This document shows, in pieces, positions 1-23,164 of a stretch of 24,841 bases of DNA (its first letter is position 1; each line of letters starts with the position of its first letter). The stretch is from a virus. The notes beneath the pieces are model-generated. The model was not told the DNA's origin and did not search any database. It saw only the letters and a program-made list of their open reading frames with translations. A program made the position numbers and the translations under genes. Location of the stretch: positions 1 to 24,841 of the IMG/VR virus record IMGVR_UViG_3300014493_000121, one strand, 5' to 3'.

Positions 1-294
1 GATGTTTCCCGAACAGCCACCGCTTCCGACGAGCGAGCCGTTCCGATATACGAGGTAGTACGTCGCACCTGAAACCGAGGGCCAAGAGAGGATCGCCGTG
101 TTAGTCAAGCACCCGGTTCCCGAGTTGACCGAGCACACGGAGGGGCCGCCACCTTGCTGGCCGATGACTTCGGCCGGGGCCGAAGGAACGCCAGCGGTTG
201 GGGCGACACCGCCCCGCCCATGTCTCGCCCAGGAATCCGGGGCAATGGATGCTGCGAGAATGAGCCCGAGCAGAATCGATGTAATTCGTTTCAT
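1..294 (-). CDS. Signal-peptide protein with fibronectin III-like domain (3' end cut off)
   Basis: The first 98 residues are visible and the gene runs off the left edge. The N-terminus ([18 protein letters not shown]) has a basic start, a hydrophobic core and a possible cleavage site after SWA (about residue 23), as in a Sec signal peptide. After a Gly/Pro/Ala linker, residues about 37-93 resemble a fibronectin type III strand pattern (PSAPAEV, ILSWPSVSGATYYLVYRNG). Two cysteines lie 8 apart (CSVNSGTGC). The ATG overlaps the TGA of the preceding fibre gene by one base (TGATG), and AGGA lies 5 bases upstream, so the start is well supported and translation is probably coupled. FN3-like domains occur in phage tail and surface proteins that bind carbohydrate. 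The role here is inferred: an exported or virion adhesin working with the upstream fibres. Confidence 0.7.
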   Translation of the reverse strand, partial: MKRITSILLGLILAASIAPDSWARHGRGGVAPTAGVPSAPAEVIGQQGGGPSVCSVNSGTGCLTNTAILSWPSVSGATYYLVYRNGSLVGSGGCSGNI

Positions 295-3200
295 CAGAAT
301 CCTATGCAATGAAACTTCACATAGTCGTTCCCGACCATCGTCCCGCTGAAGGTATCGGTGGTGGTGCTGCCGACCCCTTCCACCAACGTATCCGCCGTCG
401 TCGTTACGTCATGAGCTTCGCAAGCCCAGCCATTCGAGGCTGTTGGAAACGTGATCGTGATGGTCGATGCACCGCTCGTTCCCGTGCATTGGAATTTGCC
501 GGCCGAGGTGCCGGTCGTTCCTGTCTTGGTGATCGCTGAACAAGCACCCGTGCCCGTTACGGTGTACTGAGTGCCGGTGTCGATCAGATAGGTGAGGGTC
601 GAGGTTGCCGTGGGAGCCGCGCTCGATCCCGTCGCATTCGCAAGAACCGTGTTCGCGCCAATCGCCGCAAATGAGGTGGTCAGGCTGCCCGCCGTGTTGG
701 TCACCACACCCGTCAAAGCAGGCATGGCGGCTGTGGGGAGCGTGGTCGTCGCCGTGAGCGTCGTGCCGCTGCCCGCATAGTAGGGGATCTGATTCGTGGT
801 GCCGCTGCCGACCGTGCCTGATCCGCCGGTTGCGCTGCTGACGCTCTGATCGCAATCGAGCGTCGTGCCATTCGATACCAGATTCCAGGTGTCGCCCGCT
901 GGGATTCCGGTCCCCGATACGCAGCCTGCCCCAGCATTGATCGTAGGCGTTGTGGAGATTGCCGCCGTCGAGGCTGAGTAGTTGACGATGGTCAGACTCA
1001 TGCCGGAAGCAAACACTGTCGATGAAATCGCCGGAATCGTGATCGTGCCGCCGCCCGAGACGTTGGTGTTGATCTGGCCGCCCATGTCGGTCGAGGCCAC
1101 CGTGGGCGAAGTGGTCACGGTGCGAATCGGGACGTTGGTGCCGAGCGTGCCCGAGGTGATGGCCAGGGTCGAGGCCAGCGCCGCGCAGCCCATCGTGGTG
1201 CTCGTGGAATTGTCGATGAGGCAAGGCGCGGTCGCGCCGCTTACCGTCGTGGTGCCCGGCGTGATGGAACTGGCGGACGCACTCGGCGTTGCCCAGGTGC
1301 CATCTCCGCGCCAGAACGTGCTCGAGCTCGCCGACGTGCCGCTGTTCAGATTGGTCACGGCGAGGTTCCCGGTGACGGCGCTCGCGAGCGGTATCCCGGT
1401 GAAGTTCGTGCCGGTCAGGGTCGGCGTGGTGGTGAAGGCCGGAATGGCCGAGGCCGAGCCCTGCAAAACGCCCGCCGCGCCGGCAATCGATGCCGGGACG
1501 CCGGTCGCCCCGTAGGTCTGAACCCCGTAGTTCGATGCGCTGAAAAACGAGGTCGCACCCGCCCCCGTTTGATAGGGCTCCTGGTTCGCCGTGCCGCCCG
1601 CGATGTTGGTCGCTGCGCCGGCCGTGAGCCCCGATGCGGTTCCGGTGGCATTGGTCGCAACCAAGGCGGAGGGGGTGCCGAGTGCGGGCGTCGTGAGCGT
1701 TGGCGACGTGGCAAAGACGACATTGCCTGTCCCGGTCGCTCCACCCGCCGTCACGCCTCCGATCGAGATATTCGTGCCAAAAGTTTGCAGTGCCGAGAAC
1801 GTCTGGGCCAGGTTCAACTCTGCAAGCGTGCCGGTGTTGGCCGGAACGGTTGCAGTGTAGGCGCTCGCGCTCGCGTTCGCGCTCGTAAAAGTCGTCGCGC
1901 CCGTAGACGATCCCAACAACAGCAGATCGCTATTGGTGAAGGTCTGAGGCGCGGTGAAAGTTTCCGTGAGGTTGAGTTCGCTCAACGTGCCGGAATTCGC
2001 CGGTACCGTAGCCGTGTAGGCCGTCGCACTCGCGTTCGCACTCGTAAACGTGGTTGCGCCGGTTGAAGAGCCGAGCAACGCCAGGTCGCTATTGGTGAAC
2101 GTTTGGACCCCGGTCCAGGTTTCTCCGAGGTTCAATTCCGCGAGCGTGCCGGTGTTAGCGGGGACCGTTGCGGTGTACGCCGTGGCGCTCGCGTTCGCGC
2201 TGGTGAAGGTCGTTGCACCAGTGCTCGACCCCAACAACAGCAAGTCCGAGTTGGTGAAGGTCTTGGCCGCCGTGAACGTCTGCGCGGCGTTGAGCGTAGC
2301 AACTGTGCCCGAAGCGCTCGGAAATGTCATCGTCGTGGCATCGGTGCCGCTCAACGTCAACGAGTTGGTGAAGTTGAGCGTCTTGGCTGCCGTGCCGGTC
2401 AAGGTGTAGGTGCCGGTCGTGAACGTGTTGCCGTTGATTGAAGTTGCCGTGGCGGCTCCGAGCGTCGGCGTGGTCAGGCTGGGGGATACGGCAAGCACCG
2501 CATTGCCGGTGCCCGTAACCGCGAGCCCCGAGACTGCCGTGCCGGTAGAGGCGTAATAAGCCACATACCCGGAGGTTCCCGAATTGACCGTGCCTGAGCC
2601 GCCCGAGCTGCACGCCACGCCGTTGATATAGCACCCGGCCATGTTGATAGTGCCTGCGCCCTGCGCGCCGCCCGTGGGCGATCCGATGGTCACGCCGCCC
2701 GCAACCGCCGTGAAGGTGCCGGAGGATGCGGAAAGCGTCGTGAACGCACCCGCCGCTGGTGTCGTGCCGCCGATTGCCGGGGGCGTCGCGTAATTTTGAG
2801 CGGCGAAGGTTCCCAGGCCGGTCACTTGCGTCGAAGGCAGGCTGAGCGATGAAAGCGTCGTCAGCGTGGCGTTGGAGGTGCCGGTGACGTTGGCAGCGGT
2901 GCCGGTCGTGTTCTGATTCAGTGTCGGAAACGCGGCCGTGGGATAGGTCGAGAGCGCGTGGTAGGCCGGTGCGCCGCTCGCCGCCCCGATGCCGCCCCAC
3001 ACCCCGTAGCCGACCCCGGTATTCGCCAAAGTCGCCGTTACCGCGCCCGTGGAGGCGGAATTGCTTAGCAGTGCGCTATCGCCAGTGAACGAGGTGACCC
3101 CGCCGCCCCCAGAGCCGCAATCACTGCCGGTGCCCGTCACAGCTCCTGTCGTATCGACGTGAAGGCATTGAGTCGAGCCGGTGATGCCGGTGTCTTTGAG

Positions 3201-4577
3201 GGAACTGAATGTTCCGGCCGCCGGAGTGGTTCCGCCGATGGCCGGGGGAGTGGCATAGCTTTGCGTCGCGAACGTGCCGAGGCCGATTACGCTCGCATTG
3301 GGCAAGCCCGTCGCATTGGTCAAGACCAGCGCGGACGGGGTACCGAGCGCCGGAGTCGTCAACGTGGGCGAAGTGCCGAATACGAGCGCGCCGGTTCCGG
3401 TCTCATCCGTCACCGCCGCGGCCAGGTTTGCGCTCGAGGGCGTCGCGAGGAAGGTCGCCACGCCCGTCGCCAGCCCGCTCACGCCGCTGCTGATCGGCAA
3501 ACCGGTCGCATTGGTCAACGTGAGCGCGCTAGGCGTGCCCAGGTTCGGCGTGGTCAAGGTCGGGGAGGTGGCGAGCACATTGTTGCCGGAGCCCGTGCAG
3601 GTAAGCGCCGTGAACTGATTGGAGCCATTGGTCGCCACCGCGCAGGCAGTCGCCGGCACCGTCGCGCCGTTGACCTGATTGGCGGACAGGGTGCCGGTGC
3701 CCGTAGGACCGAGGCTCGCGCCCGTGCCGACGAGCATCGCCGCCGTGGTGTTGGTGCCCCCGGTCAGCGCCGAGAACGCGCCGGAGCCACCGCACGAGCC
3801 GGCGACGATCTGGCTGGAGCCGTTGGTGCCCACGCAAGACTGGCTGGCGGGGATCGCTGCGCCGTTGATCTTGCCGACCGTGGTGGCGGCGGTTCCGACC
3901 GTATTGGTCACATCGCCGGTCAGCGCGAGAAATTGGGCGGCCTGCAAAGTGCCGCTCACCCCGGAAGTCAGGGAGATCGTGGGGAGGTCGGCCGCCACTA
4001 ACGCCCGAGGTGAGACGGCACCCGCAGAGCCATTGGGTGAAGCAAGAACATAGTTCGGCGGCTCACTCGTGCCAGTGACCGTGAAAGCGCCCGCCGTGGT
4101 AACGGGCGAGCCGGATACCGTGAGCCAGGCGGGCAGCGTGAGGCCCACGCTCGTCACCGTGCCCGCGCCCGACGTGGCGTGGCAGTTGCCGTCCGCCCCC
4201 AGATAGTCGGTGCCGGTGCAGCCGGTGAACAGCGCGATGACCGCGCCCGGCGTGGTCGCCGTCGCGAGCGACGAGAACAGCACGCCGTTGGTCTTGGTGC
4301 ACGTGATCGCGAAACTGCCAGTTGTGGTTGAGCAATCCCCGGTGAGGATCGGCATGAGCGAGGCGGGCAGATAGCCGAGAGGGTACAGCCACGACTGGAG
4401 TTGAGCCGGCGTGATGTTGACCGTGGTGCCGAGAGTCGAAGGCCCGGCAGGACCGCCCTGGTCCGCGAGGAAACGCACGGTGCTGTCGATGCCGACCGAG
4501 TTGGGGTAATTGCCAACTTCTCCCGCGAGGGCGAGAGCCGGGAGCAGCAACAGCAAAGATTTGAAAATAAATTTCAT
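294..4577 (-). CDS. Giant repeat-built tail fibre/adhesin-like protein with signal peptide (1427 aa)
   Basis: The chosen start gives [18 protein letters not shown] followed by GE, a textbook signal peptide with a likely cut after residue 18. AAGGA sits 5 bases upstream and the preceding gene ends 8 bases away. The open frame extends to 4877, but that 100-aa extension is Arg/His-rich out-of-frame coding of the neighbour. The body is Gly/Thr/Ser/Ala-rich phage-fibre repeat sequence: [18 protein letters not shown], four SPTLTTPxLGTPSA-type units, two [15 protein letters not shown] units and three exact-period 53-aa units. Cysteine pairs bracket short hairpins ([23 protein letters not shown]). 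The C-terminus has a domain with spaced Cys residues and ends [12 protein letters not shown], resembling the terminal domain of other phage repeat fibres (from memory). The role is probably receptor binding; the signal peptide also allows an exported adhesin. Confidence 0.8.
1801..2277 (-). repeat. Three tandem 159-bp in-frame repeats inside the 1427-aa fibre gene
   Basis: Three consecutive units (1801-1959, 1960-2118, 2119-2277) have an exact 159-bp period. The string attggtgaa/gttggtgaa recurs at the same phase near 1932, 2091 and 2250. Each unit encodes 53 residues with the motifs [20 protein letters not shown] and [18 protein letters not shown]. A degenerate fourth partial unit follows from 2278 ([18 protein letters not shown]). 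The period is divisible by three, so gain or loss of a unit would keep the frame. Confidence 0.9.
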
Positions 4578-4585
4578 GGTGTTCC

Positions 4586-7500
4586 TTATCGAATTCTGCG
4601 GCAACGCGCGAGGCCGCCCATGTTGATGACGCCCGCGCCCGAGTTCCAGTTGTCGAGCAATTGCAGGGTCAGATTGCCGTTGGTGTCGTCGTTGTAGATC
4701 GGCATCGCTATCGATGAGTTGGTGCCGCTCGCAATGCTGCCCGAGGTTTGATGGATCGTGGTCGACTTGCCCGAGTCGGAGCCGAAGGTCGATCCGTTGA
4801 TCAGGCCGCCCTGGTAGGCGGTCGTGGTGGTGGCCGTGGTGGTCACGTTGAACTCGGCCTGACCCCCGCAATCCCAATCGCCCGCCGTGAGTTGAATCGC
4901 GGCACCGGCGACCACTCCCGTCGTGCCAATCGAGTAAGCACCCATGATTCCGGTATAGGGCGGCGTGCCCGCGACGGTGACGTTGACGTCCGGCGTGTTC
5001 GCAATCGCAAGGGCGACCGTGCTCGCGATATTGAAATTACCGGTGCCGGAGTTGTAGGAGGCGCCCGCGATGTAGTACGTGGTCGCGGCGGCGATTCCAG
5101 TCGGGAGCGTCCCGGTGAAGTTGATGGCGCAGGTCCAATTGGTCGGACCCGTGATGACCCACGGCGCGCTCGCCCAGTTGACCACGGTCGGAGAGGCGGT
5201 CGTGAATGTGACCGCCGCCGATGTGTTGTTGACCGGGCAGTTGACCACCATGAGTTCGCCCACGGAGCCTGCCTGCACGGTATCGCCGGCCGTGGTGCCC
5301 TTGATGCCGATGGTCGAGGTCGGCGTATAGAGGCCGGTAGTCGCCAGCGTTGTGAACTTGCCGGCTGCGGGCGTCGTGGCTCCGATGGATGGCGGGCTTG
5401 CCAGGTATGTCGAGAATCCCGCGCCCGACACGGTGCTGCTGGCGCTCAGCGTATTCGTGACCATGCCGCCGTTGGAGGTGATCACCCCATCCGTGAGCAA
5501 AGAGCCGAGCGTGCCGCAAGTCGGCGTGTTCGTGCCTCCGGTGCAAGTGGGCACGCGAAGATGCAGTAGGTAATCCGCCGTATAGGTGATGCCCGTATTG
5601 CTCGTGCCGATGATGGGTGAGGGAAAATCGAACTCATACCGTGCGGGCACCGTGGCGCTCGCAGCCGTGAAGGCATCCACAAAGGACGGCGGATTCGAGT
5701 GCAGCGAGTTGATGCCGAACCCATAGGCGGGGCTGCTGCCATACGTGCCGCCAGTGAACTGGAGGGGAAGCCCTACGCCACCCGATATGCAACTCCACGC
5801 AATGGTGTTCGAATTGTTCGCCCCGACTCCCCCGGCTGCTCCGACCACCACCACTTCGTTCTGCGGGCTCGTCCAGTTGGCCACCAGACCAAAGTTGCCG
5901 CAGCCGATCGAGTTGCTGCCGTTGGCATTGTTGATATAGACGCCATACTGGCCGTTCCATTGACCCGCAGTGATCCAGGCGTTGAATACATCGAGCTGTG
6001 TGAGCGTAGCGTTCAGATAGTATGCGGGTTGTCCGGGGGCAGGCCGGTCGACCGTCCACCGATTCATGGTCGTCTTCGTCGCCTCGGAGTCGGCGGTCGG
6101 GCCGTCATAGTTGGAAAACGAATGCCAGTCGGTCAAGGTCACGTCCGCTGCATCCGCGCGGTAGGCGCTTGATTGCGTGCCATCGGTGATGAACGTCGTG
6201 AACTCATCGTCCGTATTGCCTGCCATCACCCACAACCCCTCGGTCGGCGCGGGCGAATTGGCGGAGAGAAACAGCGGGTCGTTGTGAATCCAAGAAGCCG
6301 TGTACTGCACGCGTTGCACGGTCGCTGGGATGTTGTAGAGGAAAATATTCGCGACCGTCGCGTTCATATAAATGTTGTTGTTCGACTTGAGCGCGCCCGC
6401 CTCCACGTCATCGTTGATCGACGCCAAACCGAAGCCGTCCCAGCGACAGTTGTTGTAGCCGTTGCCGGAACCCGGATTGCTTGTAGAAAACGCTCCCGTG
6501 TTGACCTGCGTAATTTCCGAACGCATTGGCGCAAGTGCGTTGATGAATTGACTGGCGCAATCCAGGCGAAACGAGTTCGTGATTGGCATGCCGATTGGCG
6601 AGGTGATGCCGTACTGAGGAAACGCAGTCGCTGACCACGGGGCAACGGTCGTGACCGGCAGGTAGGCATACGATGCGCCGCTCGCGACCGCTGCGTTGAT
6701 CGCCGCCGAGTCATCCCATCCCGCCTCCCACCAGTTATTCCCCGACGTGACCGACACCGCCGCTGCATTGGTGGTCATCGTCACGGAGTTCGTGCCGACG
6801 CTTGCGATGATGTCGTTGATGCCCGCGCCCTGATAATTGAGCGTCACCGTCGCGCCCGAGCCCGTTCCGCCGCTCGTCGCGGCCGCTGCTCCGGGGGAGG
6901 CGGTGCAGGCGCCCGGCGTCACCACGGCGAAGGTCTGGATGACGCCCGTGGCCGAGACCGTCAGCGGTTCAATCAAGGGCTGCACCGTGCAGGTGCCGCC
7001 CAATACCGTCAGGATGTCGCCCGTGTAGAGCGATGGCGTCAGCGTGCCGCCCGAGGTGTAGGCCGGAAAGGTGGTCGAGTTGATCAGCGCAAAGGTCACC
7101 GTCCACGCACCCGAAGAGCCCCCGGTTGCGCTGATCGGATAGGTGACGTTGTTGACCTGGGTCATGCCCGCGACACTGGCGAAGGTCGCGGCGGGGATTC
7201 CCGCGAAGGGGTTCACCGTGCTCACGGTCGAGATCGTGGCAACCATCGAGGCAGCCTGCGTGATGCCGGTCACCGTATAGGAGGTCGGATTGACGGTAGG
7301 GCTTTTTGCAACATAGCCCGTACCGCCGTTCGCGGGCACATACCCGCCGAGAGCGGCCTGAGCACCCAGAGGCCCGCAACCCGTCAACGCAAACGCCGCG
7401 CCGACATAGGACGCCGGCAACGACTCAGTGATGGTGACAGTCTTGGAGCTCGCCGTGCAGCGAACCGCGCCCAGCTCCTTGATCGTGCTTCCGCATCGGC

Positions 7501-10006
7501 TTGGATTCGCCGCGAACGCGCACACGTTCGCCCATGTGTTGCTGACGGCCGGACCAGAGGCGGTGTAGTTGCCGCTGAGCGCCACGATGCTTGCACTCGT
7601 GCCCGGCAGGAAATTGAGATAGGTTCCGCCGTTCAACGTGCTCGTTATGGGCGTAACAGTGATGACCCCCGAGCCGCCCGCAAGGATGTTGACGCGGCAC
7701 GCGGCAAAGCTGCCCGTGGCTTGCGGTAACGCGACGGCGACCGCTCCCGAACTTGTGTACTTGACAGCATTTCCGCAGTCACTCGATAGAATCGTATCGG
7801 TGGTGCCGGACACCGACCGAATGGTGTAGGTGGTCGAGAGCGTGCCGCTGGTCAACCCTAAGCCGCTGCCGATAGATGCGATCGACGGGACGCCGGTCGC
7901 GGTCGTGTTGAGTACCAGGCCGCTCGCGAGACCGGAAAGCGCCGTGCCGTTGATCTCATTCGCGTTGTTGATGCCGGAGCCGCTGAATGTAAGGGTGCTG
8001 CCGGAGCCGAGCGTCATGGTGGCCGACGTGTTGGTGCCGCTCGTGATATTGGAAAAAATCGGGGCGACGCAATCACTGCCGGTGCCGGAAACCACGCCCG
8101 ACGTATTGGCATGCAGGCACTGTGTTGATCCGGTGACGTTCGTTGTCAAGCTGCCGGTTGCGCCGAGCGTGGTGAAGGTGCCCGCCGCAGGCGTCGTTCC
8201 GCCGATGGCGGGCGGCGTGGCGTAGTTCTGCGTGGCGAAGGTGCCCAAGCCCGTGACGCCTGCAACGGGAAGCCCGGTGCCGTTGGTGAGCGTGATCGCG
8301 GAGGGCGTGCCGAGATTGGGGGTCGTGAGCGTGGGAGAGGTGGCGAACACCGCATTCCCCGTGCCGGTCGCGCCGGCAGCAGTCACGCCGCCGATGGAAA
8401 TGTTGGTGCCGAAAGTCTGCAGCCCGCTCCATGTATTCGCAGCACCGAGCGCGGTCGAATTCAAGCCGCTGGCCGTGATCGTGCCGCTGCCGGTCGGTGC
8501 AAGGCTCGAGCCGGTCCCGACCAACATGGCGGCCGACGTATTGGTGCCGGATGTGATGCCGTTAAACGCAGGCGCCGTCCCGCAGGCCACGCCGTTGACG
8601 TAGCATCCGGCCATGTTCAAGGTGCCCGCGCCCTCAGCCCCGCCAGTGGGGCTTCCCACGGTCACGCCGCTCGCGGAAGAGGTAAAGCTGCCCGAGGAGG
8701 CGCTGAGTGTGGTAAATGCGCCGGCGGCGGGCGTGGTGCCGCCAATCGCCGGAGGGGTCGCGTAGCTTTGTGTGGCGAAGGTGCCGAGCCCGCTGACCTG
8801 GGTCGATGGCAGGCTCAGGGCAGAGAGCGTCGTCAACGTCGCATTCGACGTGCCCGTGATGTTGGCGGCGGTCCCCGTGGTGTTCTGGTTGAACGTGGGG
8901 AAGCCGGTCAGGTTCGCGGCCGATCCGCTGGAAGGGGTGCCGAGCGCCCCGCCATTGATGACCGGAGCGCCCGCGGTGCCTGCATTGACCGCAAGGGCCG
9001 TTGCGATCCCCGTTCCCAAGCCGCTGACGCCGGTCGAAATCGGCAAGCCCGTGCCGCTGGTCAGCGTGATCGCAGACGGGGTGCCGAGATTCGGCGTCGT
9101 CAGGGTGGGAGAGGTGGCCTTGACGCTATTGCCGCTGCCCGTACAGGTGAGCGCGGTAAGTTGGCTCGATCCATTCGTTGATACCGCGCACGCGCTCGCC
9201 GGTACAGCCGCGCCGTTGACGCCGGTCGTATTGGTGGCCGTGAGGGTGCCGGAGCCGGTCGTTGCCAAACTCGCCCCTGTACCGACGAGCATCGCCGCCG
9301 CCGTGTTCGTGCCGCTGGCCAAGCCTGAAAATGCCGGGGTGCTGAGCCCGGTCACTTGGGAGGACGGCAAGCTCAACGCGGAGAGCGTGACCAGCGTCGA
9401 GTTCGACGTACCCGTGATGTTCGATGCGGTGCCGGTCGTATTTTGATTGAGCGTCGGAAAGCCGGTGAGATTCGCCGCAGAGCCCGAACTGGGCGTTCCC
9501 AATGCGCCGCCGTTGACGACCGGCGCGCCAGCCGAGCCGACATTTACACCGAGCGCCGTGCCGACGCCGGTACCCAGTCCAGTGACGCCAGTGATCGGAA
9601 GCCCGGTGCCATGGGTCAGCGTGACCGAGGAAGGCGTGCCGAGCGCCGGAGTGACCAAGGTGGGAGAGGTGGCCAGGACGGTCGCCCCCGTGCCCGTGGT
9701 CGAGGCGAAAGACGAAGCGCATCCCGATGTGACAATGACGCCGGTGTAGGGTGGCAGCACGATGCACGGCAATATGCCCTTCGTGATGTTGTAGGCGTTC
9801 GTAGTATCGACGGTCGCGGAGGGCGCAAGAGTGGACGTGGTCTGCGTGGTGATCTGCGCGACCGTGCATTTCTTCGTGCCGCCTTGCTCGCACGGCATGG
9901 CTTCTGAGCCGGTAAGCGTGGTAGCCGCAGGCAGATTGCCGATGGTCGTAGGGGTTTGCGCGTTCGTGGTGAACGTCACAAAGAGCAGCGCGAGAAGTTT
10001 TTTCAT
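4586..10006 (-). CDS. Giant fibre/depolymerase-like protein: signal peptide, fibre repeats, pectate-lyase-like beta-helix (1806 aa)
   Basis: It begins [16 protein letters not shown] with QT following, a short signal peptide with a likely cut after residue 16. The ATG overlaps the upstream stop by four bases (ATGA), with AGGT close upstream. Residues about 60-700 are fibre repeats: three SPTLxTPxLGTPS units, two long [21 protein letters not shown] blocks, TGSTQCLH and CYVNGVAC modules. Residues about 720-830 resemble a common fibre module ([24 protein letters not shown]). From about residue 1090, [20 protein letters not shown] matches the opening of pectate-lyase-3/phage-depolymerase beta-helix domains (D1098-D1099), followed by several hundred Asn/Gly-rich residues. 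The C-terminus (about 1560-1806) has further Cys-containing beta-rich sequence. I infer a virion-associated or exported polysaccharide-binding or -degrading protein; catalytic residues cannot be assigned by eye. Confidence 0.8.
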
Positions 10007-11040
10007 GTGACCTGTATAGGTTGTCCGGTGTCCGTGATGATCGTCTGCCCGGTATCCGTGACCAGTACAGATACGCCCGCTGGATTGCCGCCCTCGAATT
10101 GAAACGTGGCGCTCGCCTCCACGATCAACTGCCGAGCGACGACGGCAGCGCGTTGCTGGTGGTACGAGATTTCAAACGTGATGGTCTTTTTCATGCCGAG
10201 CGCTTGCAACTCAGCCACCGAGCGTTTCGCGTCGGTCACCACGGGCATGTTCATGATCCCGAAATTGTTGGTGTCGATGCTGTACTGGAGCACGCAGTCG
10301 ATGAAATCCATCGCCGCATTGTGCTGCAGCCCGTAGAGCGTGATCTTCACCTTGTCTGCCACAAGCTGGCTGTGGCTGCGGTTGATCGTCAGGTATGGCG
10401 CAGCCGCGAGCGCCCGCGTGTCCTCTTCGCCGATGTGGACCGCGCCATAGGGCGGCACTTGATTCGGCGCGACGATGTACGACGGGAACAGCTCAATGAA
10501 ATTCGAGAAGCCGTCCGAGTACGGGCACTCGTAATTGTTCAATGCCAGCCAGAGCGGCAACGAGTTCGACACCACCGCCTGATTCGGATCGATGTACTGC
10601 GGCGAGTTCGGATTGTCGGAGTTCGACGAAAGAAACTGGCTGGTCATCGCCGGAGGGATCGAGTGCCCGAAGTAATGCCACAAGCCCGCTTGCGAATAGA
10701 ATCCCTGCTGCTGCGAAAACGCGAAGAAAAACCCTCCCGCCTTTGAAACAAACAGCGTGTTGATCGGCGCTTCCTCGAACTGCGTCACGCGCTCTTCGGC
10801 GGTAAAAAAGATGGTGCCCTGTCCGTAGGTCTCATCCTCGCCCTGCACAATCTCTTGCGAGTAGTGCAGCGAGCCGACAATCGTGAGCGGCACCGTGGGA
10901 CGCCAGAAAATGTAGCTGTCGAGCGGCAGCACCACGCGCGTATGCGCCTGGAAATTCGTCGGCACGAACTCCAGCGGCACGTTTTGCAGGGCCGCGTAGA
11001 TTTGGTCCGCTGACCCCCGGCCCGCCTCACTGATGCTCAT
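10003..11040 (-). CDS. Conserved phage structural protein, possibly tail-terminator/neck related (345 aa)
   Basis: The ATG directly abuts the TGA of the upstream 141-aa gene, and the stop overlaps the next start by four bases, so it is an operon member. There is no signal peptide, unlike its neighbours on both sides. The N-terminal half is rich in aromatic and hydrophobic beta-type sequence (LPLDSYIFWRPTVPLTIVG). Residues about 245-315 (KVKITLYGLQHNAAMDF, YSIDTNNFGIMNMPVV, MKKTITFEISYHQQRAAVVA) resemble, from memory, neck or tail-terminator type phage proteins. This is a family-level impression, not a search result. The position after a probable tail-completion protein fits a role at the head-tail junction or tail tip. 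It could equally be a minor tail or baseplate-like component. Confidence 0.6.
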   Translation of the reverse strand: MSISEAGRGSADQIYAALQNVPLEFVPTNFQAHTRVVLPLDSYIFWRPTVPLTIVGSLHYSQEIVQGEDETYGQGTIFFTAEERVTQFEEAPINTLFVSKAGGFFFAFSQQQGFYSQAGLWHYFGHSIPPAMTSQFLSSNSDNPNSPQYIDPNQAVVSNSLPLWLALNNYECPYSDGFSNFIELFPSYIVAPNQVPPYGAVHIGEEDTRALAAAPYLTINRSHSQLVADKVKITLYGLQHNAAMDFIDCVLQYSIDTNNFGIMNMPVVTDAKRSVAELQALGMKKTITFEISYHQQRAAVVARQLIVEASATFQFEGGNPAGVSVLVTDTGQTIITDTGQPIQVT

Positions 11041-11466
11041 TCAATCGACCCAAACGCGAAACGATGCCATGTACAGCCCGGTATCCAAGAAGCTTGGACG
11101 CCGCACGCCGGTGCGTGGGTTCTTCTTGCGATGGTTGATCCCCATCAACGCGGCTTTGGTCGGAGTGCCTGGAATGCCCACGGTTTCCGCCTGCTTGGAG
11201 GCGATGAAGTCCTTGAAACCGCTTTGAATCTGCTGGCACGCGGCGGCCAGCGGATCGACGCGCGGGGCACCCATGAAACGCGACTCGATGGCTCCGGCCA
11301 CCGAGCGTTCGAGCGCCGCGATGTTCTGTTTCTCGCGCACGCGCCAGTAGACGCTCATGATGCCGTACTTTTTTTCCAAGATTTGCGCCACGTCGAACGT
11401 GGTGATGCCCTTGCGCCCCTTGTACGCGTAGGGCTGAACAACGACGCCAAGATGCAGTACGGTCAC
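11041..11466 (-). CDS. Probable head-tail joining/tail completion protein (141 aa, GTG start)
   Basis: I choose the GTG at 11466 because it overlaps the upstream fibre stop as GTGA; the frame upstream of it is antisense-like Arg/His-rich sequence within the fibre gene. The protein begins MTVLHLGVVVQPYAYKG, contains a basic helix-rich middle and ends RRPSFLDTGLYMASFRVWVD. A Pro/Phe-(L/I)-Asp-Thr-Gly-Leu-Tyr segment near the C-terminus is reminiscent of HK97 gp10-like and related tail-completion proteins, which sit at the neck of siphoviruses and myoviruses. The length is in the usual range. The gene is followed without a gap by the 345-aa structural gene. The assignment is inference from motif and position. 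Confidence 0.6.
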   Translation of the reverse strand: MTVLHLGVVVQPYAYKGRKGITTFDVAQILEKKYGIMSVYWRVREKQNIAALERSVAGAIESRFMGAPRVDPLAAACQQIQSGFKDFIASKQAETVGIPGTPTKAALMGINHRKKNPRTGVRRPSFLDTGLYMASFRVWVD

Positions 11467-13250
11467 GGGGTCCACATGGCGACGTAGCGAACTAGCATCG
11501 TGCCCGCCGTGAGCGCGCCGTGGCTCGCGGTCTGGAGGATTGGCTGATAGCCGAGCGAGTCGCGGAATGTGTTGGTCGTGCCGGTGACTGCCGTCGAATA
11601 GGTTTCGACCAGCGTGCCGTCGAGCCACACGTAGAACTTCTGGCCCACCGGATCATACGCACCGCCAAAAATGTGCTCCGTGGTGTAGCTGATCGCGCCG
11701 GTTTGCGCGGTCTGCACCAGGACGTTGTAGGCGCCCGCCGTGAGCGAGGCGGAGCATGGCGAACAGGTAAGCGCCGGCCCCCACGTCATCGTGGTCGAGC
11801 CGTTGGTCAGCGTCGCCGGGTAGAGGTTCTGGCTGGAGGTCGTGAAGGCATTGAACGTCGATTGCGAGTCGCCGGCCCACGGTGCTGTGAGGGTACAGCC
11901 GTGCGCGCCGGTCGAAGGCGCAACGGTACACGTGACGGGGATGCCGGGGCTCGAACTGCCGCCCCAGTTGATGTAGGTGCCGCGCAGGAAACCGGACTGG
12001 TCGGTGCCGTGGCCGTTCTCGTTGATGTCGAACTCGTGCCACTGCTCGTAGGCGGCCGGAAATGGGCTGCCGGGCTCGTCGCCCTTCGCCGCATTGTGCT
12101 GCCATGGCTGCACGAAAAGCGCATCGAAACTGTCCGCATTGTCGGTCGGGATCGTGTACGCGGCCTCGAAATAAAAGCCCTTCGAGCCGATGGCGGGCGG
12201 GAGCTTACCGAGCAGCCCGGTGATGTTCGTGGTGTTCTGCGACGCCGTGATGGTCATCACCGCCGCATTGCCCGACGTGTAGTAGAGCGCGAGCTGGCCG
12301 GTGCCCGAATCGGTGCCGAACGCGGCGGACGTGGGCTGGCCCGAATACGCGGCGATGCCCGCATACCAATTGGCCTTGGTCGTGCCGCGGCTGAACACGA
12401 GGTCCGCGAATACCGGGAAGTCGGTGTACGCATTGTGCGTGTAGCCGAGCAGGGCCGCGCCCGGTGGGATCGGGGGAGTGCCGACGACGTTCCAGCGCAC
12501 CCCGTCGCACGTCATGCGCCCCATGTCGGTCGTGAGCGCCGATGCGCCGGCATTGCTGGCCGGGGGGTAGCTTGCAATGATCTGCGTCGAAGTGAATGTG
12601 CCGGGAATGAAGCTCGAGGCGCACGGAGCGCCGGCATCGCCCAGCGCCGCGCTCGCGGACCAGGTAACGCAATGCCCGGCGGTGCTTGAGTTGATGACCG
12701 GGATACCGGCAGCCGCCAGGGAGGTCGCACCCGTGCCGCCCGAGCCCGCGGGAACAGTGTAGCCGGACGCGAGCGCATTGGCCGTGACGACGCCGCTACC
12801 AGTCGGCGCGAGACTCGCCCCCGTACCGACGATCAGCGAGGCGACGGTGTTGGTGCCGCTGGTAACGGAGCTGAACGCCGGCGAGCCGCCCCCCGTGCCG
12901 CACGGCGTCCAGTTGGCAATGACGCCGTTGGTGCCCAGGCAATCGCCGGAGAAGCCGGTCTGTCCGGGCAGCAGCGCGTTGATCGCCGCCGTCGCCGTAT
13001 TCGCACCCGTCCCGCCGCTCGCAATCGGCACCGCCGATAGGTTGCCGAGGAACGTGTAGACGCTGATCCAGTTGGTATTGTCCTTGCCGAAGGCAAGCCA
13101 TGCCGGGTCGCCCTGATTGCCGGTGCCGGGGTTGGCGACCGTGTTGCAAGGCGTGGCCGGTACTTGAATGCAGTTGATGATCTGCTGCGAGAACGCAGGC
13201 GCAGCCGTGAACAGGCCGAGCAGTGCGAGAAGCTTGACGAAATTTTTCAT
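11463..13250 (-). CDS. Fibre protein with signal peptide and GH16/concanavalin-like C-terminal domain (595 aa)
   Basis: It begins MKNFVKLLALLGLFTAAPA, a signal peptide with likely cuts after residue 19 (APA) or 21 (AFS). The ATG overlaps the upstream stop by four bases, with GGAG about 10 bases upstream. Residues about 70-185 are fibre linkers ([29 protein letters not shown]) with Cys pairs (CLGTNGVIANWTPC). From about residue 270 the protein resembles a concanavalin-like jelly roll. FYFEAAYTIP and an aromatic stretch precede HEFDINENG, and YVWLDGTLVETY follows near the end. EFDINE (residues 406-411) matches the ExDxxE catalytic pattern of glycoside hydrolase family 16. I infer a glycan-binding or glycan-cleaving fibre. 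It could be only a lectin-like fold. It interrupts a run of small connector genes. Confidence 0.75.
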   Translation of the reverse strand: MKNFVKLLALLGLFTAAPAFSQQIINCIQVPATPCNTVANPGTGNQGDPAWLAFGKDNTNWISVYTFLGNLSAVPIASGGTGANTATAAINALLPGQTGFSGDCLGTNGVIANWTPCGTGGGSPAFSSVTSGTNTVASLIVGTGASLAPTGSGVVTANALASGYTVPAGSGGTGATSLAAAGIPVINSSTAGHCVTWSASAALGDAGAPCASSFIPGTFTSTQIIASYPPASNAGASALTTDMGRMTCDGVRWNVVGTPPIPPGAALLGYTHNAYTDFPVFADLVFSRGTTKANWYAGIAAYSGQPTSAAFGTDSGTGQLALYYTSGNAAVMTITASQNTTNITGLLGKLPPAIGSKGFYFEAAYTIPTDNADSFDALFVQPWQHNAAKGDEPGSPFPAAYEQWHEFDINENGHGTDQSGFLRGTYINWGGSSSPGIPVTCTVAPSTGAHGCTLTAPWAGDSQSTFNAFTTSSQNLYPATLTNGSTTMTWGPALTCSPCSASLTAGAYNVLVQTAQTGAISYTTEHIFGGAYDPVGQKFYVWLDGTLVETYSTAVTGTTNTFRDSLGYQPILQTASHGALTAGTMLVRYVAMWTP

Positions 13251-13498
13251 CGGGTACGGGCTCCGATTTGACGCAGGGCGCCGGGCGGCGCAACCGAGAT
13301 GCCGCCCGTTTGCTCCACGATGAATGCCTGGAAGTCATTGGCGAGCGCGCGAAGCGCGTCAGGGTTCACGCCGTCGAACACAATCGAGCCGACGTAATCG
13401 CCATTGCTCATGGTGTAGATGAGTCGGTTGATGCCGCCGGCCAGGAGCGCCGTGCGCTTAAGCTCCAGGCCGGGAGGATTTGCAGCAGGTGTCGTCAT
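13247..13498 (-). CDS. Small phage protein of unknown function (83 aa)
   Basis: The start at 13498 is set by an ATGA overlap with the upstream 199-aa gene, and the stop overlaps the fibre start by four bases in the same way. Double coupling makes this a real gene. The longer open frame upstream is shadow sequence. The product (MTTPAANPPGLELKRTALLAGG) has an alpha/beta pattern with YVGSIVFDGV and a hydrophobic helix ALRALANDFQAFIVEQTGG. It has no signal peptide or membrane span. I do not recognise a family. Position among connector and tail genes suggests a minor structural protein or assembly helper. Confidence 0.65.
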   Translation of the reverse strand: MTTPAANPPGLELKRTALLAGGINRLIYTMSNGDYVGSIVFDGVNPDALRALANDFQAFIVEQTGGISVAPPGALRQIGARTR

Positions 13499-14098: not shown

Positions 14099-14671
14099 TC
14101 AGGCCGCGCTCTTGCGCCCGCGACCGGAGGGCGTCTTGCCTTCCTCCGCGACTTCGACCACGTTGTTGAGGCGGGGCGTGTTGCCGTTAACTTCCTGAGC
14201 ACCCTTTTCGGCGACCTGAACGTCGGTCTCGCGCAGATCCTTGAAGGGCGCATCATCCTGCGCGGCGACTTCGCGCATGTTGCTCGCGATCTGGAGCGCG
14301 GTGTTGGTCTGGCGCTGCTTGTTTTCCTCGGTGCGTACCTTGTCGTTGGTTTCCAAGCGCTCGAGGATCTCCTCGATCGGGACCGGATTGTCCTGCCGAT
14401 AGCAGAGGCCTTGGAAGCCGCGCACGGTATTCAGATCCTCAAAGCGGACGATGTGCGGGTGCTGCTCGAGGATGTTCTTCACATCGGGGCCTTCCAGCGC
14501 CTTATCGTTGCCGATGCAGATTTGTCCACCGAGCGGGATGGGAAGCCGGCGCAGCTCGCCGTACTTCGGTTTGATGATGCCGTCCTGATTTTCCCCCGAG
14601 AAATCGCGGAGTTTCGGACGCCATACGAATTCGTGATTTTGCTTTGTCGTGTTCGCTATGAATAGCTTCAT
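14099..14671 (-). CDS. Phage protein of unknown function downstream of the capsid gene (190 aa)
   Basis: The product begins MKLFIANTTKQNHEFVWRP and has an N-terminal beta-rich part with charged Arg/Lys residues, then a helical part (IEEILERLETNDKVRTEENK) and a low-complexity basic tail ending SGRGRKSAA. A GGGGA sequence lies about 7 bases upstream of the ATG. The gene is separated from the capsid gene by a 73-base gap holding an intrinsic terminator, so it depends on read-through or on a promoter I cannot see. It has no signal peptide or membrane span. I recognise it only as a phage structural-region protein; the charged, possibly disordered C-terminus could contact nucleic acid or other head proteins. 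Confidence 0.65.
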   Translation of the reverse strand: MKLFIANTTKQNHEFVWRPKLRDFSGENQDGIIKPKYGELRRLPIPLGGQICIGNDKALEGPDVKNILEQHPHIVRFEDLNTVRGFQGLCYRQDNPVPIEEILERLETNDKVRTEENKQRQTNTALQIASNMREVAAQDDAPFKDLRETDVQVAEKGAQEVNGNTPRLNNVVEVAEEGKTPSGRGRKSAA

Positions 14672-14688
14672 TGGTAAGTCCCCAGTTG

Positions 14689-14718: not shown

Positions 14719-14744
14719 TGAACGCCTTGAAGGAAGGTTGTCGA

Positions 14745-15764
14745 TCAATAAGGCATCGAGATCAGCTGCAAGCACTCCGGTCGCACGACCCAGCCCGGGC
14801 TCGCGCGCATCTCGGTGAGCACATCGATCGCGCCACCGGGGAGCGGAGTCGGGATCTCGAGCGGCGCCACCATGTCGGTGTACAGGAGCGAATTGTCATT
14901 GAAGCCCTGCGAGAGCTTCGCAAACATGTTCGTGTCGAGCGGCTGCTTCAAGTGCGGCTCGATCTCCGGCATGATCAGGATCACCAGATCCGTGCCGCCC
15001 GTTCCCTGGCCGATCAGCGAGTCGTCATAGGCGAACTCGACCACATCGTTACCGGCTTCGATCCCGATCTGCTTGAGCATCTCGAGAGTCGACCCCGTGC
15101 CTGCGCCCGGCCGCTGGTAGGACGTGAGCTGCACCACGTTGTACTCGAAGATACCGAGGATGCGTTGCGGACCCAGGAACGCGAACCGCCGGGGCGTGCC
15201 CAGCTGGTACGTGCGGGTCTTGATCGCGAGGATCTGCTGCGCGAGAAACAACGCCATCTGACCGGAGTCATAGTTGTGCGCCGCGGTGTCGCCGAAGGTG
15301 TCCGGCGGCAGGGTGATGGTGGTCGCACCCGGGGTGTTGACGATGCCCTCGCCGTATCCGGGGAGCGCCCCGTAGAGCGTGCGGTCACGGAGCAGCAGGT
15401 GATGGCCCTGCTGCATGGCGTACTTGTACGCCTCCGGCAGTCCCAAGCCCCATTTCGACGCCATCGCCGTGTCGTGGTGGTCGTACTCCGTGCGGATGCG
15501 CTGGTTGTACGTCGGGCACTGGATCATGCCCATCACGATATTGGGATTGGGGACCACGTTCCCGGTGGCCGGGTTTTGCAGCATCGTGGTTCGCACCTGG
15601 GCGGTGCGGATGTAGATCATCTTGTCTTCGCTGTCGAGTTGCACGCGGGGATTGCCGCCCGCGAGAGTGCGAGTGTAGCCAGACGCCTGGTTGACACTCA
15701 TGATGATATTCGGCTCGAAGTGACTCGGCGATACCGTCAGTACGGAAGGTGCTATGAGACCCAT
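14745..15764 (-). CDS. Major capsid protein (DUF2184-like)
   Basis: The 339-aa product begins MGLIAPSVLTVSPSHFEPNI, with GAGGA about 9 bases upstream. Its length, mixed alpha/beta composition and segments such as SDxLIGQGTGGTDLVILIMPEIEP-like strands (near residues 250-275) resemble DUF2184-type HK97-fold capsid proteins. It sits where a capsid gene is expected: after portal, protease-like, scaffold-like and decoration genes, and before a strong terminator. No N-terminal scaffold extension is apparent, consistent with a separate scaffold gene upstream. It forms the icosahedral shell. Family naming is from recall of sequence and gene order; the capsid role itself is strongly supported by context. 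Confidence 0.8.
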   Translation of the reverse strand: MGLIAPSVLTVSPSHFEPNIIMSVNQASGYTRTLAGGNPRVQLDSEDKMIYIRTAQVRTTMLQNPATGNVVPNPNIVMGMIQCPTYNQRIRTEYDHHDTAMASKWGLGLPEAYKYAMQQGHHLLLRDRTLYGALPGYGEGIVNTPGATTITLPPDTFGDTAAHNYDSGQMALFLAQQILAIKTRTYQLGTPRRFAFLGPQRILGIFEYNVVQLTSYQRPGAGTGSTLEMLKQIGIEAGNDVVEFAYDDSLIGQGTGGTDLVILIMPEIEPHLKQPLDTNMFAKLSQGFNDNSLLYTDMVAPLEIPTPLPGGAIDVLTEMRASPGWVVRPECLQLISMPY

Positions 15765-15803
15765 GATTGATTTTCCTCAGTTGAATTTGGTGACGATGGC
15801 CGA

Positions 15804-16424: not shown

Positions 16425-16467
16425 GGTTTAACTCCTAAAAAGGAAAAAGGTGGAATGGCGCAGGTGG

Positions 16468-19417: not shown

Positions 19418-21031
19418 TTAGGCCGGGACGGCGGGGGGAAGCGTGCGCTGGCGCGCGATGGCGCGCTCGCGGGGGCTGGTCAGCCGAGCGGCGGCCTCGC
19501 GGAGCTTGGCGATCTGCACATTGATCTGCGCGACACTGTCGCCGGCGTCCTTGAAGCCCTTGCCGAAACTGCCTTCTGCCGGTTCGAGCGAGGCCTTGTG
19601 CGCCTCCTCCTGGCGCTCGGCATTCTCTTCCTGGAATTCCTCGAGCGCCTCCCAGTCGAGTTCGAGCTCGTGCGGGAAGAGGCGCTTGTTCTCGCCGAAG
19701 CAGTCGGCCGCCCACTGAATGAGCTTGGACTTATTCTCGGCATCCAATTGAGGTAGGAGGGTATTCAAGATGGCCACCACGGCCTCGAGCTTGACTTCCT
19801 CCTTTTTGATTTCTTCGGACTCCGGCTCGATCAGGAGCGAGGGCCACTCCGCCTGAAAGGCCTGGCGCCACTGGGAGAAGGCGGTGAACCAGTCGATGCC
19901 GCCCCATTCTTCCGGATACTTGGCCTGGATGACGGTCTTGTACCAGAGCGGATTCCACGCCCGGTACTGCGCGATATTGTTGAACCACACGTACACGGGC
20001 CGCATCTTGATGCGAATCGATTCGATGTACTGGGCATTGCGCTTCGAATCCTCGGTGCCCTCACCGAAGCCCGAGACCATCGTTTCCTGGTCGAGCATCT
20101 TCGCGGGCATGTCCGCCGCGGCCTCGATATTTCGGATGATGTTGTTGCGCGAGTAGCTGCCGGCGCCGTCGACGTTGGTCATGTCGATGGTGGCCACATC
20201 CTCATCGGTGCCGATCGAGAGCACCTGGCCGGACGTGGCGAACTTGAGGAGCATCCGCTTCCACGCGGCAAGCTTCAGCATCGCGTTGTTGATGACCGAG
20301 CCGGGGGACTTCTGCTTCGCGATCAGAAGCGCGAGCTTCGACTGGATCATGTCGTCGGCGATCATCGAGCGCAGGAACGACTTCATGGCAAAGAGCGCGC
20401 GCATGTAGACCGATCGGCCGACGAAGCCGAAGGCGGAGCCGGTGTACTGGATGAACACCGGATTCTCGTTCATTACCACCTTGAAGCGGGAGGGGTGATA
20501 GGACTCGCCACTGGTCGACACGCGCACCGGCCGCTGGAAGCCGGGGTCATTCGGATTCTGCGACAGCACCAGCGAGCCCGATGTGTTGAGCGGATCCAGG
20601 ACATTGAAATACACGTCCTTATCCCAGATTTTGTCCATCTCCACCGGGACATTGGAGGGCACGTCTTTCACGCCCAGGATGACCGTGGAGATGCCGTACA
20701 CGCGGGCGAGAGCGTGGACATTCAGGATGTGCTGGTCCGCTTCCATGGCGGCCCACTGATCGGTGAAGGCCTTGACCGCCTCATCGGGCGCCCCCTGGAT
20801 CGTGACTTTGCGCTCCTGGGATTGCGCGAGCTTGATCGGGCCCTCTGCCATCTTGCCGCCGAGCGGGTGGTAGATGTAGATCGTCTTGCACAACTGGTAG
20901 GAGGGCTCCGTGCCGGGCTGGATATCCTCACCCATCAGCATCTGCATCAGCGGGCTTTCCGCCCCGCCACCATAGGACAGCACGAGCTCCGAATACTGGT
21001 TGCTGCCGGTGTCGCCGCTCAGACTACCCAT
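19418..21031 (-). CDS. Portal protein (DUF1073-like, 537 aa)
   Basis: The length is right for a portal subunit, and it sits between terminase and head-morphogenesis genes. The N-terminal half has the DUF1073-type features (HALARVYGISTVILGVKDV, FNVLDPLNTSG), followed by long helices (MKSFLRSMIADDMIQSKLAL) and NNIIRNIEAAADMPAKMLDQ before a C-terminal coiled region rich in Glu (EEFQEENAERQEEAHK). The portal forms the dodecameric ring at one capsid vertex through which DNA is packaged. I choose ATG 21031 (MGSLSGDTG), which overlaps the upstream gene by 8 bases and has GGGG upstream; an in-frame TTG at 21046 would need a 23-base overlap. Confidence 0.8.
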   Translation of the reverse strand: MGSLSGDTGSNQYSELVLSYGGGAESPLMQMLMGEDIQPGTEPSYQLCKTIYIYHPLGGKMAEGPIKLAQSQERKVTIQGAPDEAVKAFTDQWAAMEADQHILNVHALARVYGISTVILGVKDVPSNVPVEMDKIWDKDVYFNVLDPLNTSGSLVLSQNPNDPGFQRPVRVSTSGESYHPSRFKVVMNENPVFIQYTGSAFGFVGRSVYMRALFAMKSFLRSMIADDMIQSKLALLIAKQKSPGSVINNAMLKLAAWKRMLLKFATSGQVLSIGTDEDVATIDMTNVDGAGSYSRNNIIRNIEAAADMPAKMLDQETMVSGFGEGTEDSKRNAQYIESIRIKMRPVYVWFNNIAQYRAWNPLWYKTVIQAKYPEEWGGIDWFTAFSQWRQAFQAEWPSLLIEPESEEIKKEEVKLEAVVAILNTLLPQLDAENKSKLIQWAADCFGENKRLFPHELELDWEALEEFQEENAERQEEAHKASLEPAEGSFGKGFKDAGDSVAQINVQIAKLREAAARLTSPRERAIARQRTLPPAVPA

Positions 21032-21455
21032 CCACACACCCCACAAATTGATCGTTGAAACCGCGCACGCGCAGCACGTCGTAGATTGCGCGCGCCTGGG
21101 CGGTTGCGCCGTTCTGGTCGGTAAACTGGAACATCACCTGCTTCGGCTCATATAGCCGGGTGAAGGAAATCAGCGAGTTGGATACGGCCGGGATCTGGAT
21201 CTGAGTCGTCTGCACCAAAATGCCGGTCCATGGGATGATCATCGCCCCGGACACCACATCATCCAGGCGCCAGCGTAGCGCCAAGGGCGCGAACTGCGTG
21301 CCGAGGCCATTGCCGCCCACGACGGGTGGTGTGAACACGGCAAAGTTCACATAGCACGCGTTTTGCTCGAGCACGCACGTGCGGGCGCCGGCGAGCGCGT
21401 TCTGGCTCTGCACGGTGACCGTCGCATAGCCGAATTGGCCGGGGGGCAGCGTCAT
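21024..21455 (-). CDS. Phage protein of unknown function between terminase and portal (143 aa)
   Basis: The product begins MTLPPGQFGYATVTVQSQNA and is mostly beta-strand-like, with two close cysteines (CVLEQNAC) and the segments MFQFTDQNGATAQARAIYDVLRVRGF near the end. Its ATG overlaps the stop of the 31-aa membrane gene by four bases, and it overlaps the portal start by 8, so it is embedded in the operon. It has no signal peptide and no membrane span. I do not recognise a family. The location suggests a minor head or connector protein. Confidence 0.65.
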   Translation of the reverse strand: MTLPPGQFGYATVTVQSQNALAGARTCVLEQNACYVNFAVFTPPVVGGNGLGTQFAPLALRWRLDDVVSGAMIIPWTGILVQTTQIQIPAVSNSLISFTRLYEPKQVMFQFTDQNGATAQARAIYDVLRVRGFNDQFVGCVDG

Positions 21456-21550: not shown

Positions 21551-23164
21551 TCAGAATCCCTCCGGATTGCCTAGAGCGATAGAAACTCCATAGCAGAAGG
21601 TGTCAAGCAAGTCGTCCGCGCCCTGGTCGCCGGTCGACGGGCTGAAGTTCAGCACCTGCGTAAGCATGTGGTTCTGGACGAAACCCTTGTACTCCACGAC
21701 CTTGTCGTAGGCGTTGCGGGAAAACTTTACCTTGCCCGCGTGGATGTAGCCGGAGACGTTGACCGCCCGGCCGGCCTTGCCGAGCGCCGTCATGTCGCTT
21801 TCAATCGCCGTGACCGGCCAGCCGTGGTTGTGGCTTTGCTGGATCAGAACGATGCCGGAGTCCTTGTCCTCGACGAACACGCCCACGGAGCCCTGCAACA
21901 CCTGGAATTCATGGGTGAGGGCCTGGAGCCGCCCGAGCACGGCATTGGGCATCCACTCCTCGAGGAGCGCGGCCTCGATCTGCGTGATGTTCCAATCGAG
22001 CAGCACGAGCGGCGGCTTATCCACGTCCGCCGGGCGCAGGCCCCAGAATGCGACGCCGACACCATCATGCGTGGAGCCGGTCTTCGAGGCCGAATCGACC
22101 ACGGCGAAGACCACGTCCAGGACACCGATCTCCTCCTCCGGCTCGCCGCGGTACGCGATGCGCTCCACCGAGCCGCCGAAACCATCGTCCGTCTCGGTTG
22201 TATCGACGCGGTAGCAGAGGTGCTCTTTGGTGAAGAAATTACCGCCAACGGCGGTTGGGGCCTGCATGTATTGGCTCGCAAAAACGTAAGGGGATGCCTT
22301 CTGCATCTTCCTGAGTTTCTCGATCGGATGCTTTTCGGGCCAAAGCGCTGTGCCGTCGTCCATGATCGCCGGCAAGCGAAGATGTTCCCATTCCTCACCA
22401 TTTCGCCCGGCGCGCAGCCAGGCAGGCAAGTCTTCCACATGCAAACAATGCGCAATCACGATGATCGGCGTTGTCGCCCAATTCAATCTGTTCTCCACGG
22501 TCTGTTGGAAGTTCCGAATGACCTTCTCGCGCACCGGGCCGAATACTTCGTCGGGCTTGTGGGGGTCATCGACGATCAGCGCGCCGCCAAAGCCGTCCCG
22601 CATCTTGCCGGCGCCGAGACCGGTGACGGTGCCGCTCGTACCCGCGGCATACACCCGGCCACCCTGCGCGGTCTGCCAGTCTCCCGCGTGCTCGCGCGTG
22701 AGGGCGAGCTCCGGGAAGATGCCGTGATAGGCGGCTGACTTGACGTTTCGGAGCGCCTCGGCGGTCTTATCTTCGGCAAGCGTCGAGCCGTAGGACAGGT
22801 AAATAAACTCCGAATCCGGGACGTGCCCAATCGTCCATTCGATGAAGTTCTCCACCAGCTGCGTCTTCGAATACCGCGGCGGCATCGAGATGATCAGCCG
22901 AAGGATCAGGCCTTCGAACACGGCCTGCAGATACTTTGCGACGATCGCGTGGTGGCGGGCCCGCTGCCACTTGATGCCTGAATTGCGCAGCATGATCCAG
23001 CGCGAATAGAACTCGAAATCCTTCCGAGCCTTCCAGTTGCCGACCGCGATATCCTTGTCGGAGAACCGCGTGATGATGCGCTGACGTTCCGGCTCCGCGC
23101 GTTTGGCCGCGTTGCGCTTGAGCTCCTCGAGCCGGCTGATCGGACCGGCTAAGGCATCCGTCAT
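21551..23164 (-). CDS. terL: Terminase large subunit
   Basis: This 537-aa protein is the DNA packaging motor: an N-terminal ATPase and a C-terminal RNase H-fold nuclease. Walker A is MPPRYSKT (residues 94-101), the variant PPRxxKT form rather than GxxGKT. Walker B is LIVDD (196-200). A coupling-type segment IIVIAHCLHVEDLP follows (234-247). The nuclease acidic residues are D357 (FAVVDSAS), E432/D433 (VFVEDKDSG) and the late DDLLDTF (517-523). Length is normal and no motif is missing. The ATG overlaps the small-subunit stop by four bases. It works with the upstream small subunit and the portal downstream. Cleavage type (cos or pac) cannot be read from the sequence. Confidence 0.95.
   Translation of the reverse strand: MTDALAGPISRLEELKRNAAKRAEPERQRIITRFSDKDIAVGNWKARKDFEFYSRWIMLRNSGIKWQRARHHAIVAKYLQAVFEGLILRLIISMPPRYSKTQLVENFIEWTIGHVPDSEFIYLSYGSTLAEDKTAEALRNVKSAAYHGIFPELALTREHAGDWQTAQGGRVYAAGTSGTVTGLGAGKMRDGFGGALIVDDPHKPDEVFGPVREKVIRNFQQTVENRLNWATTPIIVIAHCLHVEDLPAWLRAGRNGEEWEHLRLPAIMDDGTALWPEKHPIEKLRKMQKASPYVFASQYMQAPTAVGGNFFTKEHLCYRVDTTETDDGFGGSVERIAYRGEPEEEIGVLDVVFAVVDSASKTGSTHDGVGVAFWGLRPADVDKPPLVLLDWNITQIEAALLEEWMPNAVLGRLQALTHEFQVLQGSVGVFVEDKDSGIVLIQQSHNHGWPVTAIESDMTALGKAGRAVNVSGYIHAGKVKFSRNAYDKVVEYKGFVQNHMLTQVLNFSPSTGDQGADDLLDTFCYGVSIALGNPEGF
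21558..21563 (-). promoter_or_regulatory. Strong ribosome binding site of the 31-aa gene
   Basis: GGAGGG on the minus strand, 10 bases before the ATG at 21547 and inside the last codons of the terminase gene. It is the main evidence that this very short reading frame is translated. Confidence 0.7.

Follow-up and report, generated by a model that had tools for sequence, protein, structure and literature searches.

The window analysed here, 24,841 nucleotides (24.8 kb) from the IMG/VR record of an uncultured tailed phage, carries four fibre-like genes, f1–f4, each of which opens with a Sec-type leader, and their products are very probably exported through the Sec pathway. In sequence comparisons, leaders of this kind recur, conserved as predicted cleavable-type signal peptides, both in relatives of this phage and in phages unrelated to it. 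We propose, at about even confidence, that f1–f4 are Sec-exported accessory fibres or depolymerases that would be held in the periplasm, released at lysis and then act outside the cell on glycans.

Four leader-bearing genes in a late structural operon

The late operon lies on the minus strand and was assigned to a PdC23/QDWS-like phage on gene order and protein identities. As in Pantoea phage PdC23 and Shewanella phage QDWS, it runs from the small and large terminase genes (large subunit, 21551..23164; phrog_38) through the portal (19418..21046; phrog_146), head morphogenesis, a NUDIX-type gene and capsid-region genes to the major capsid protein (14745..15764; 50.6% identical to PdC23 gp06), and then to connector genes, a conserved structural gene of 141 aa (11041..11466; phrog_6560) and another of 345 aa (10003..11040; phrog_6359). 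f1 (11463..13250) lies downstream of an 83-aa gene (13247..13498) and precedes the 141-aa gene, and f2 (4586..10006), f3 (294..4577) and f4 (1..294) come after the 345-aa gene, all on the minus strand. In PdC23 and QDWS the 141-aa homologue is flanked directly by conserved genes, with no fibre insertion between them. As the PdC23 homologue of the 345-aa gene directly adjoins the next conserved gene, f2–f4 are insertions in the window.

The f1 product consists of a signal peptide at residues 1–21 (MKNFVKLLALLGLFTAAPAFS, 13188..13250, cut before QQ), a repeat region with paired cysteines and a C-terminal domain at residues 215–595. In f2 the signal peptide occupies residues 1–16 (9959..10006) and is followed directly by a phage-fibre N-terminal module, fibre repeats and a long C-terminal region; f3 has a signal peptide at residues 1–18 (4524..4577), fibre repeats and a C-terminal two-cysteine domain common to leader-bearing proteins of L008, L147 and G005. 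The fourth gene is incomplete at the contig end and gives the start of a protein with a 23-residue signal peptide (226..294), for which the cleavage position is assigned with less certainty; the near-identical contigs in IMG/VR stop short of the missing part. These products are classed as fibre-like by the LPAATTLTG module of f2, by PTLTTPxLGTP-type repeats and by their place in a PdC23-like structural operon. No usable family was found for f1–f3 in PHROG, Pfam or NCBIfam, or for the f4 fragment in PHROG or Pfam, and whole f1 used as a query against phages returned no homologue.

The leaders were delimited with a home-made three-region rule (charged n-region, uncharged hydrophobic h-region and A-x-A-type cut), the criteria for Sec and signal peptidase I substrates being small residues at −3 and −1 and a cut at about 15–30. 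As a control, 8/8 classical E. coli signal peptides passed, and from 45 E. coli genes the rule picked the two evident exported proteins, along with three membrane proteins and, weakly, one soluble protein. The products starting at 13250, 10006, 4577 and 294 all pass with scores of 4.0–4.5 and have the pattern of Sec/signal peptidase I substrates, in agreement with the Sec-type leaders that the first-pass annotation had read there; the interspersed 345-, 141- and 83-aa genes, which it had described as leaderless, are so by the rule as well. None of the other 15 genes of the window passes, and four of four fibre genes against none of 15 would be expected by chance about once in 3,900 (Fisher); the first-pass annotation had also argued that several leaders in one operon speak against chance. 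In comparison, 0/38 QDWS genes, 3/75 PdC23 genes and 0/3,573 internal 45-mers of f1–f3 passed. The leaders of f1–f4 contain no lipobox, no cysteine at the cut and no twin-arginine motif, and no later transmembrane segment was seen in the mature chains.

The start codons of f1, f2 and f4 overlap the stop codon of the preceding gene (the 83-aa gene for f1, the 345-aa gene for f2), and the ATG of f3 has AAGGA a few bases upstream. With the starts fixed in this way, by stop/start overlap or by a Shine–Dalgarno sequence, any translation of the operon would include the leaders, and true starts lying after the leader, which the first-pass annotation had named as one outcome that would overturn its reading, are highly improbable. 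A reading in which the leaders are chance matches or misannotated starts of ordinary cytoplasmic fibres can draw on the existence of leaderless relatives of the same modules, but we regard it as scarcely credible given these starts, the conservation of the leaders across many phages and their absence from all 15 neighbours.

Selection on the leader and its spread

To locate the junction between leader and fibre, the following fibre module was used as the reference. At 35/35 such junctions the residue at −1 is A, G or S and that at −3 is A, S, V or T, and the charged n-region is likewise kept, while mean identity within module groups is 40–52% for the leaders and 54–75% for the modules behind them. 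When a real leader was drifted neutrally in simulation to 60–35% identity, 4–28% of the products still passed the rule. Bcep1 and Bcep781 have different leaders, the same module behind and different distal parts. Because the cleavage-site residues are kept while the leaders diverge, selection for export is indicated, with the leaders kept as cleavable-type signal peptides. Taken with the leader pattern across many phages, this comparison strongly supports the passage through the inner membrane that the first-pass annotation had suggested. That annotation had also considered a leader retained as an anchor on the virion. An uncleaved hydrophobic N-terminus that tethers trimeric fibres to the virion or a membrane would account for the position and hydrophobicity of the leader, but it is disfavoured by the conserved cleavage site at every junction despite leader divergence and by the retained n-region charge, and we hold it to be very improbable.

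Three longer relatives of the window were read (G002, G003 and G004). In G002 and G003 a leader-bearing fibre lies between the 345-aa gene and the gene in the sheath position, the same insertion site as in the window, and in G004 the fibre at this site is leaderless. Two more cysteine-rich proteins with leader-like starts (977 and 738 codons) are encoded in G002 between large terminase and portal (14598–19738; L161), and this interval is a second insertion site. In G005, of the same lineage, an 868-codon leader-bearing gene stands in the tail-fibre place, and a fibre end matching that of G005 is present in Caballeronia calidae. G005 also encodes, adjoining the major capsid gene (25245–25721; L174), a protein of about 158–159 aa with a leader and then a phage-fibre motif (NNLSDVASAATARTNLGLG).

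Looking for the leader in homologues from other phages, as had been suggested at the outset, was productive among cultured phages and Burkholderiaceae genomes as well as these environmental relatives. Cultured phages with a leader-bearing fibre are Shewanella phage QDWS, Bcep781, Bcep43, Bcep1, BcepC6B and PBR31. Homologous N-termini occur in 27/399 and 22/300 genomes (about 7%) of Burkholderiaceae, the family of Paraburkholderia panacisoli; 27 of the 31 distinct Burkholderiaceae open reading frames pass the rule and the remaining four are truncated or have a non-standard start, one of them (L228) also with an obvious leader. Among fibre open reading frames sampled by repeat motif, 6/100 have a leader. 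The arrangement of leader and fibre thus recurs across many proteobacteria, in their prophages as well as their phages, and some phages therefore seem to export accessory fibre proteins from the cytoplasm and not to build them directly into the particle.

Several of these loci deserve separate description. In Paraburkholderia panacisoli two leader-bearing fibre genes stand in tandem (L199, 1077–3712), the first with a leader and N-terminal module nearly identical to those of Shewanella phage QDWS. In Devosia sp. 67-54 a leader-bearing fibre-like gene lies within a 6,660-codon open frame (G014 C9 near 104675; L187/L207). The true, leader-bearing fibre of QDWS is 687 aa long (L015 4005–6186, equivalent to OK094664 14004–16185); the deposited annotation holds only its C-terminal part (4005–5261), plus a likely spurious opposite-strand gene over the N-terminal half. 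The entry OP650936.1, 'Hujiaoplasma phage zrk29-1', matches QDWS in length (47,902) and in its fibre, which is 100% identical, and its named host is doubtful.

The usual assumption is that fibres of tailed phages are both synthesised and attached in the cytoplasm. The first-pass annotation started from this premise, and it needs qualifying in so far as fibres are held never to be exported, given that cultured phages have the trait and that GenBank flags it in two of them. The GenBank notes give Bcep781 gp49 and Bcep1 gp51 as 'possible tail fiber; possible signal peptide domain'; treatment of leader-bearing tail fibres as a class was not found in the full-text literature searched, which leaves out most subscription journals. 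In accounts of PBR31, PQ43W, Atu_ph07, JG068, KBNP1315, the classification of the Myoviridae and the eCIS catalogue, signal peptides are absent or unrelated to fibres; where named, they concern lysis proteins, an esterase, methods or references.

Apparently exchangeable N-termini, cysteines and possible glycan targets

The modules behind the leaders are ordinary phage-fibre modules that begin the protein elsewhere. For example, 16 other fibres with the LPAATTLTG module, which stand for about six kinds as many are close relatives, start 8–9 residues ahead of the motif and have no leader; in f2 a 16-residue leader stands ahead of the same module. Distal domains behave similarly. The C-terminal domain of f1 shares 41–43% identity with the corresponding domain of a protein that has a leaderless fibre start (MANKNISDLPAG) and comes from a phage contig unrelated in other respects. 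BcepC6B gp19, PBR31 orf35 and the second L199 protein end in sequence belonging to phrog_11393, a family represented by KpV74/PhiM1-type tail fibres in which the N-terminus differs and is leaderless. As the same distal domains occur with or without a leader, the leader and the ordinary fibre start look like interchangeable N-terminal options. A podovirus-like contig (L277, IMG/VR 3300024279_000030, 3–1286) holds a leaderless f1 homologue followed by a leader-bearing cysteine-rich gene (MKHLFWFLFFATAAHA).

Mature leader-bearing fibres are richer in cysteine (12.8 vs 3.4 per 1000 residues, p = 5e-6), and the number of cysteines is even in 11 of 13. Both the frequency and the even number would fit folding in the periplasm. 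However, some leaderless fibres of the same lineage are also cysteine-rich (16 in G003 and 12 in G004), and the leaderless f1 homologue L273 has several cysteines, so that cysteine pairing is support for export and not proof of it. We had considered it as proof and dropped it on account of these leaderless proteins.

One hint of enzymatic function is the sequence QWHEFDINENG in the C-terminal domain of f1, a GH16-like E-x-D-x-x-E motif that is kept in L273. The domain gave no match in Pfam or PDB, its alignment by hhalign with the GH16-like neighbour from L008 gave no support, and an AlphaFold model built from two sequences only reached a pLDDT of 27.5; the assignment of f1 as putatively glycan-active, based on one motif, is weak. 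That neighbour is a leaderless 446-aa gene (L008, 13156–14496) adjoining a leader-bearing fibre, with GH16 similarity just below the Pfam cut-off. The leader-bearing proteins of QDWS and L009 have pectate-lyase/beta-helix similarity, also just below the Pfam cut-off. Together, the beta-helix/pectate-lyase and GH16 similarities and the EFDINE motif of f1 suggest glycan targets. Acyltransferase genes (PF01757) lie beside leader-bearing fibres in QDWS (L015, 2960–4012) and in L199 (3833–4936), and acyltransferase-like open reading frames beside related loci (L202, 4531–6015; L203, 4941–5966; L204, 4930–5955); these neighbours may point to modification of O-antigen.

Possible roles of exported fibres

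In the explanation that we favour, f1–f4 would be made late, together with the structural genes, and their cleavable Sec signal peptides would direct them across the inner membrane of the infected Gram-negative host; once cleaved, they would fold in the periplasm, possibly with disulphides. Lysis would then free them to bind or cleave surface glycans outside, and they would not be built into the particle in the cytoplasm.

The main rival, and a more novel one than free release, is mounting on virions after lysis: the proteins would be exported, cleaved, folded in the oxidising periplasm and attached to tails only after lysis, as virion fibres assembled outside the cytoplasm. We consider this possible, though we lean against it. 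The tail-fibre position, behind the baseplate genes, is where QDWS and G005 carry their leader-bearing gene, and such a location is more readily understood for a component of the virion than for a free protein. Bcep1 and Bcep781 share the arrangement of leader and first module while their distal parts diverge, as is usual for receptor-binding proteins, and f2 retains behind its leader the usual N-terminal fibre module, for which there is not obviously any need in a free protein. Against it, Bcep781, BcepC6B, PBR31, G002 and G004 also have a separate leaderless fibre or spike; the exported protein is then not needed as the sole fibre, and beside such a fibre it looks accessory. The more general proposition, that in some tailed phages receptor-binding fibres mature in the periplasm, losing the leader and forming disulphides, and are mounted only at burst, so that assembly is completed outside the cytoplasm, seems to us unlikely.

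Alternatively, once exported, the proteins could act on the phage receptor, by binding or modifying it at the cell surface or from the periplasmic side, and in this way prevent superinfection or the loss of progeny to debris. An exported distal fibre part without a virion anchor could bind a receptor, and the acyltransferases beside the fibres in QDWS and L199, with the similar frames at L202–L204, are of a type able to alter O-antigen. Yet neither a lipobox nor an outer-membrane anchor was found. The lipobox cysteine after the leader that marks superinfection-exclusion lipoproteins of the Llp/Cor type is absent from f1–f4, and f1–f3 have no autotransporter domain, translocator barrel or surface-anchor Pfam domain, f4 being partial; these results also bear on the adhesin, decoy and superinfection-blocker readings put forward in the first-pass annotation. 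Expression in the window appears to be late, judging from the tightly overlapping structural genes, and known exclusion proteins such as T5 Llp are far smaller than the 600–1800 aa of these fibres. We therefore think receptor blocking improbable.

Turning to systems that resemble the one favoured here, export of free accessory fibres, one group is Bcep781 gp49, Bcep43 gp48 and Bcep1 gp51 (phrog_33320, phrog_32740), which like f1–f4 are tail-fibre-like with a cleavable-type leader; gp49 of Bcep781 is cysteine-rich, and the second fibre gene of that phage, gp31, is leaderless. The Bcep781-type gene is, however, single and near baseplate genes in a virulent phage, whereas the window has four such genes of up to 1806 aa, and there is no sequence relationship beyond the general plan. 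BcepC6B gp19 and Xanthomonas phage PBR31 orf35 also combine a leader, fibre modules and a tail-fibre C-terminus and are encoded after a tail fibre or spike that lacks a leader, but they are only 270–360 aa long and lie before lysis genes, not among head–tail connector genes. Shewanella phage vB_Sb_QDWS is of the same lineage as the window (portal 45% and capsid 40% identical), and its fibre (OK094664, 14004–16067) joins a leader to fibre repeats and beta-helix similarity; unlike the fibres of the window it stands in the usual tail-fibre position, and its N-terminal part was missed on deposition. T5 Llp and other exclusion lipoproteins are Sec-exported phage proteins. SAR endolysins use the host Sec pathway (PMC3765740), and the fOg44 lysin is also Sec-exported (PMC4640515). 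All of these use host Sec during infection, as proposed for f1–f4, but they are small lysis or exclusion proteins and f1–f4 are repeat-rich fibres.

As cultured phages carry the trait, the proposal is directly testable. If a fibre-like class is under selection for Sec export, then phages would release free adhesins or depolymerases, or part of their assembly would be extracytoplasmic. Where receptor-binding proteins of soil and water phages are produced recombinantly, this would affect annotation of the mature N-terminus, expression without the leader and the need for periplasmic folding.
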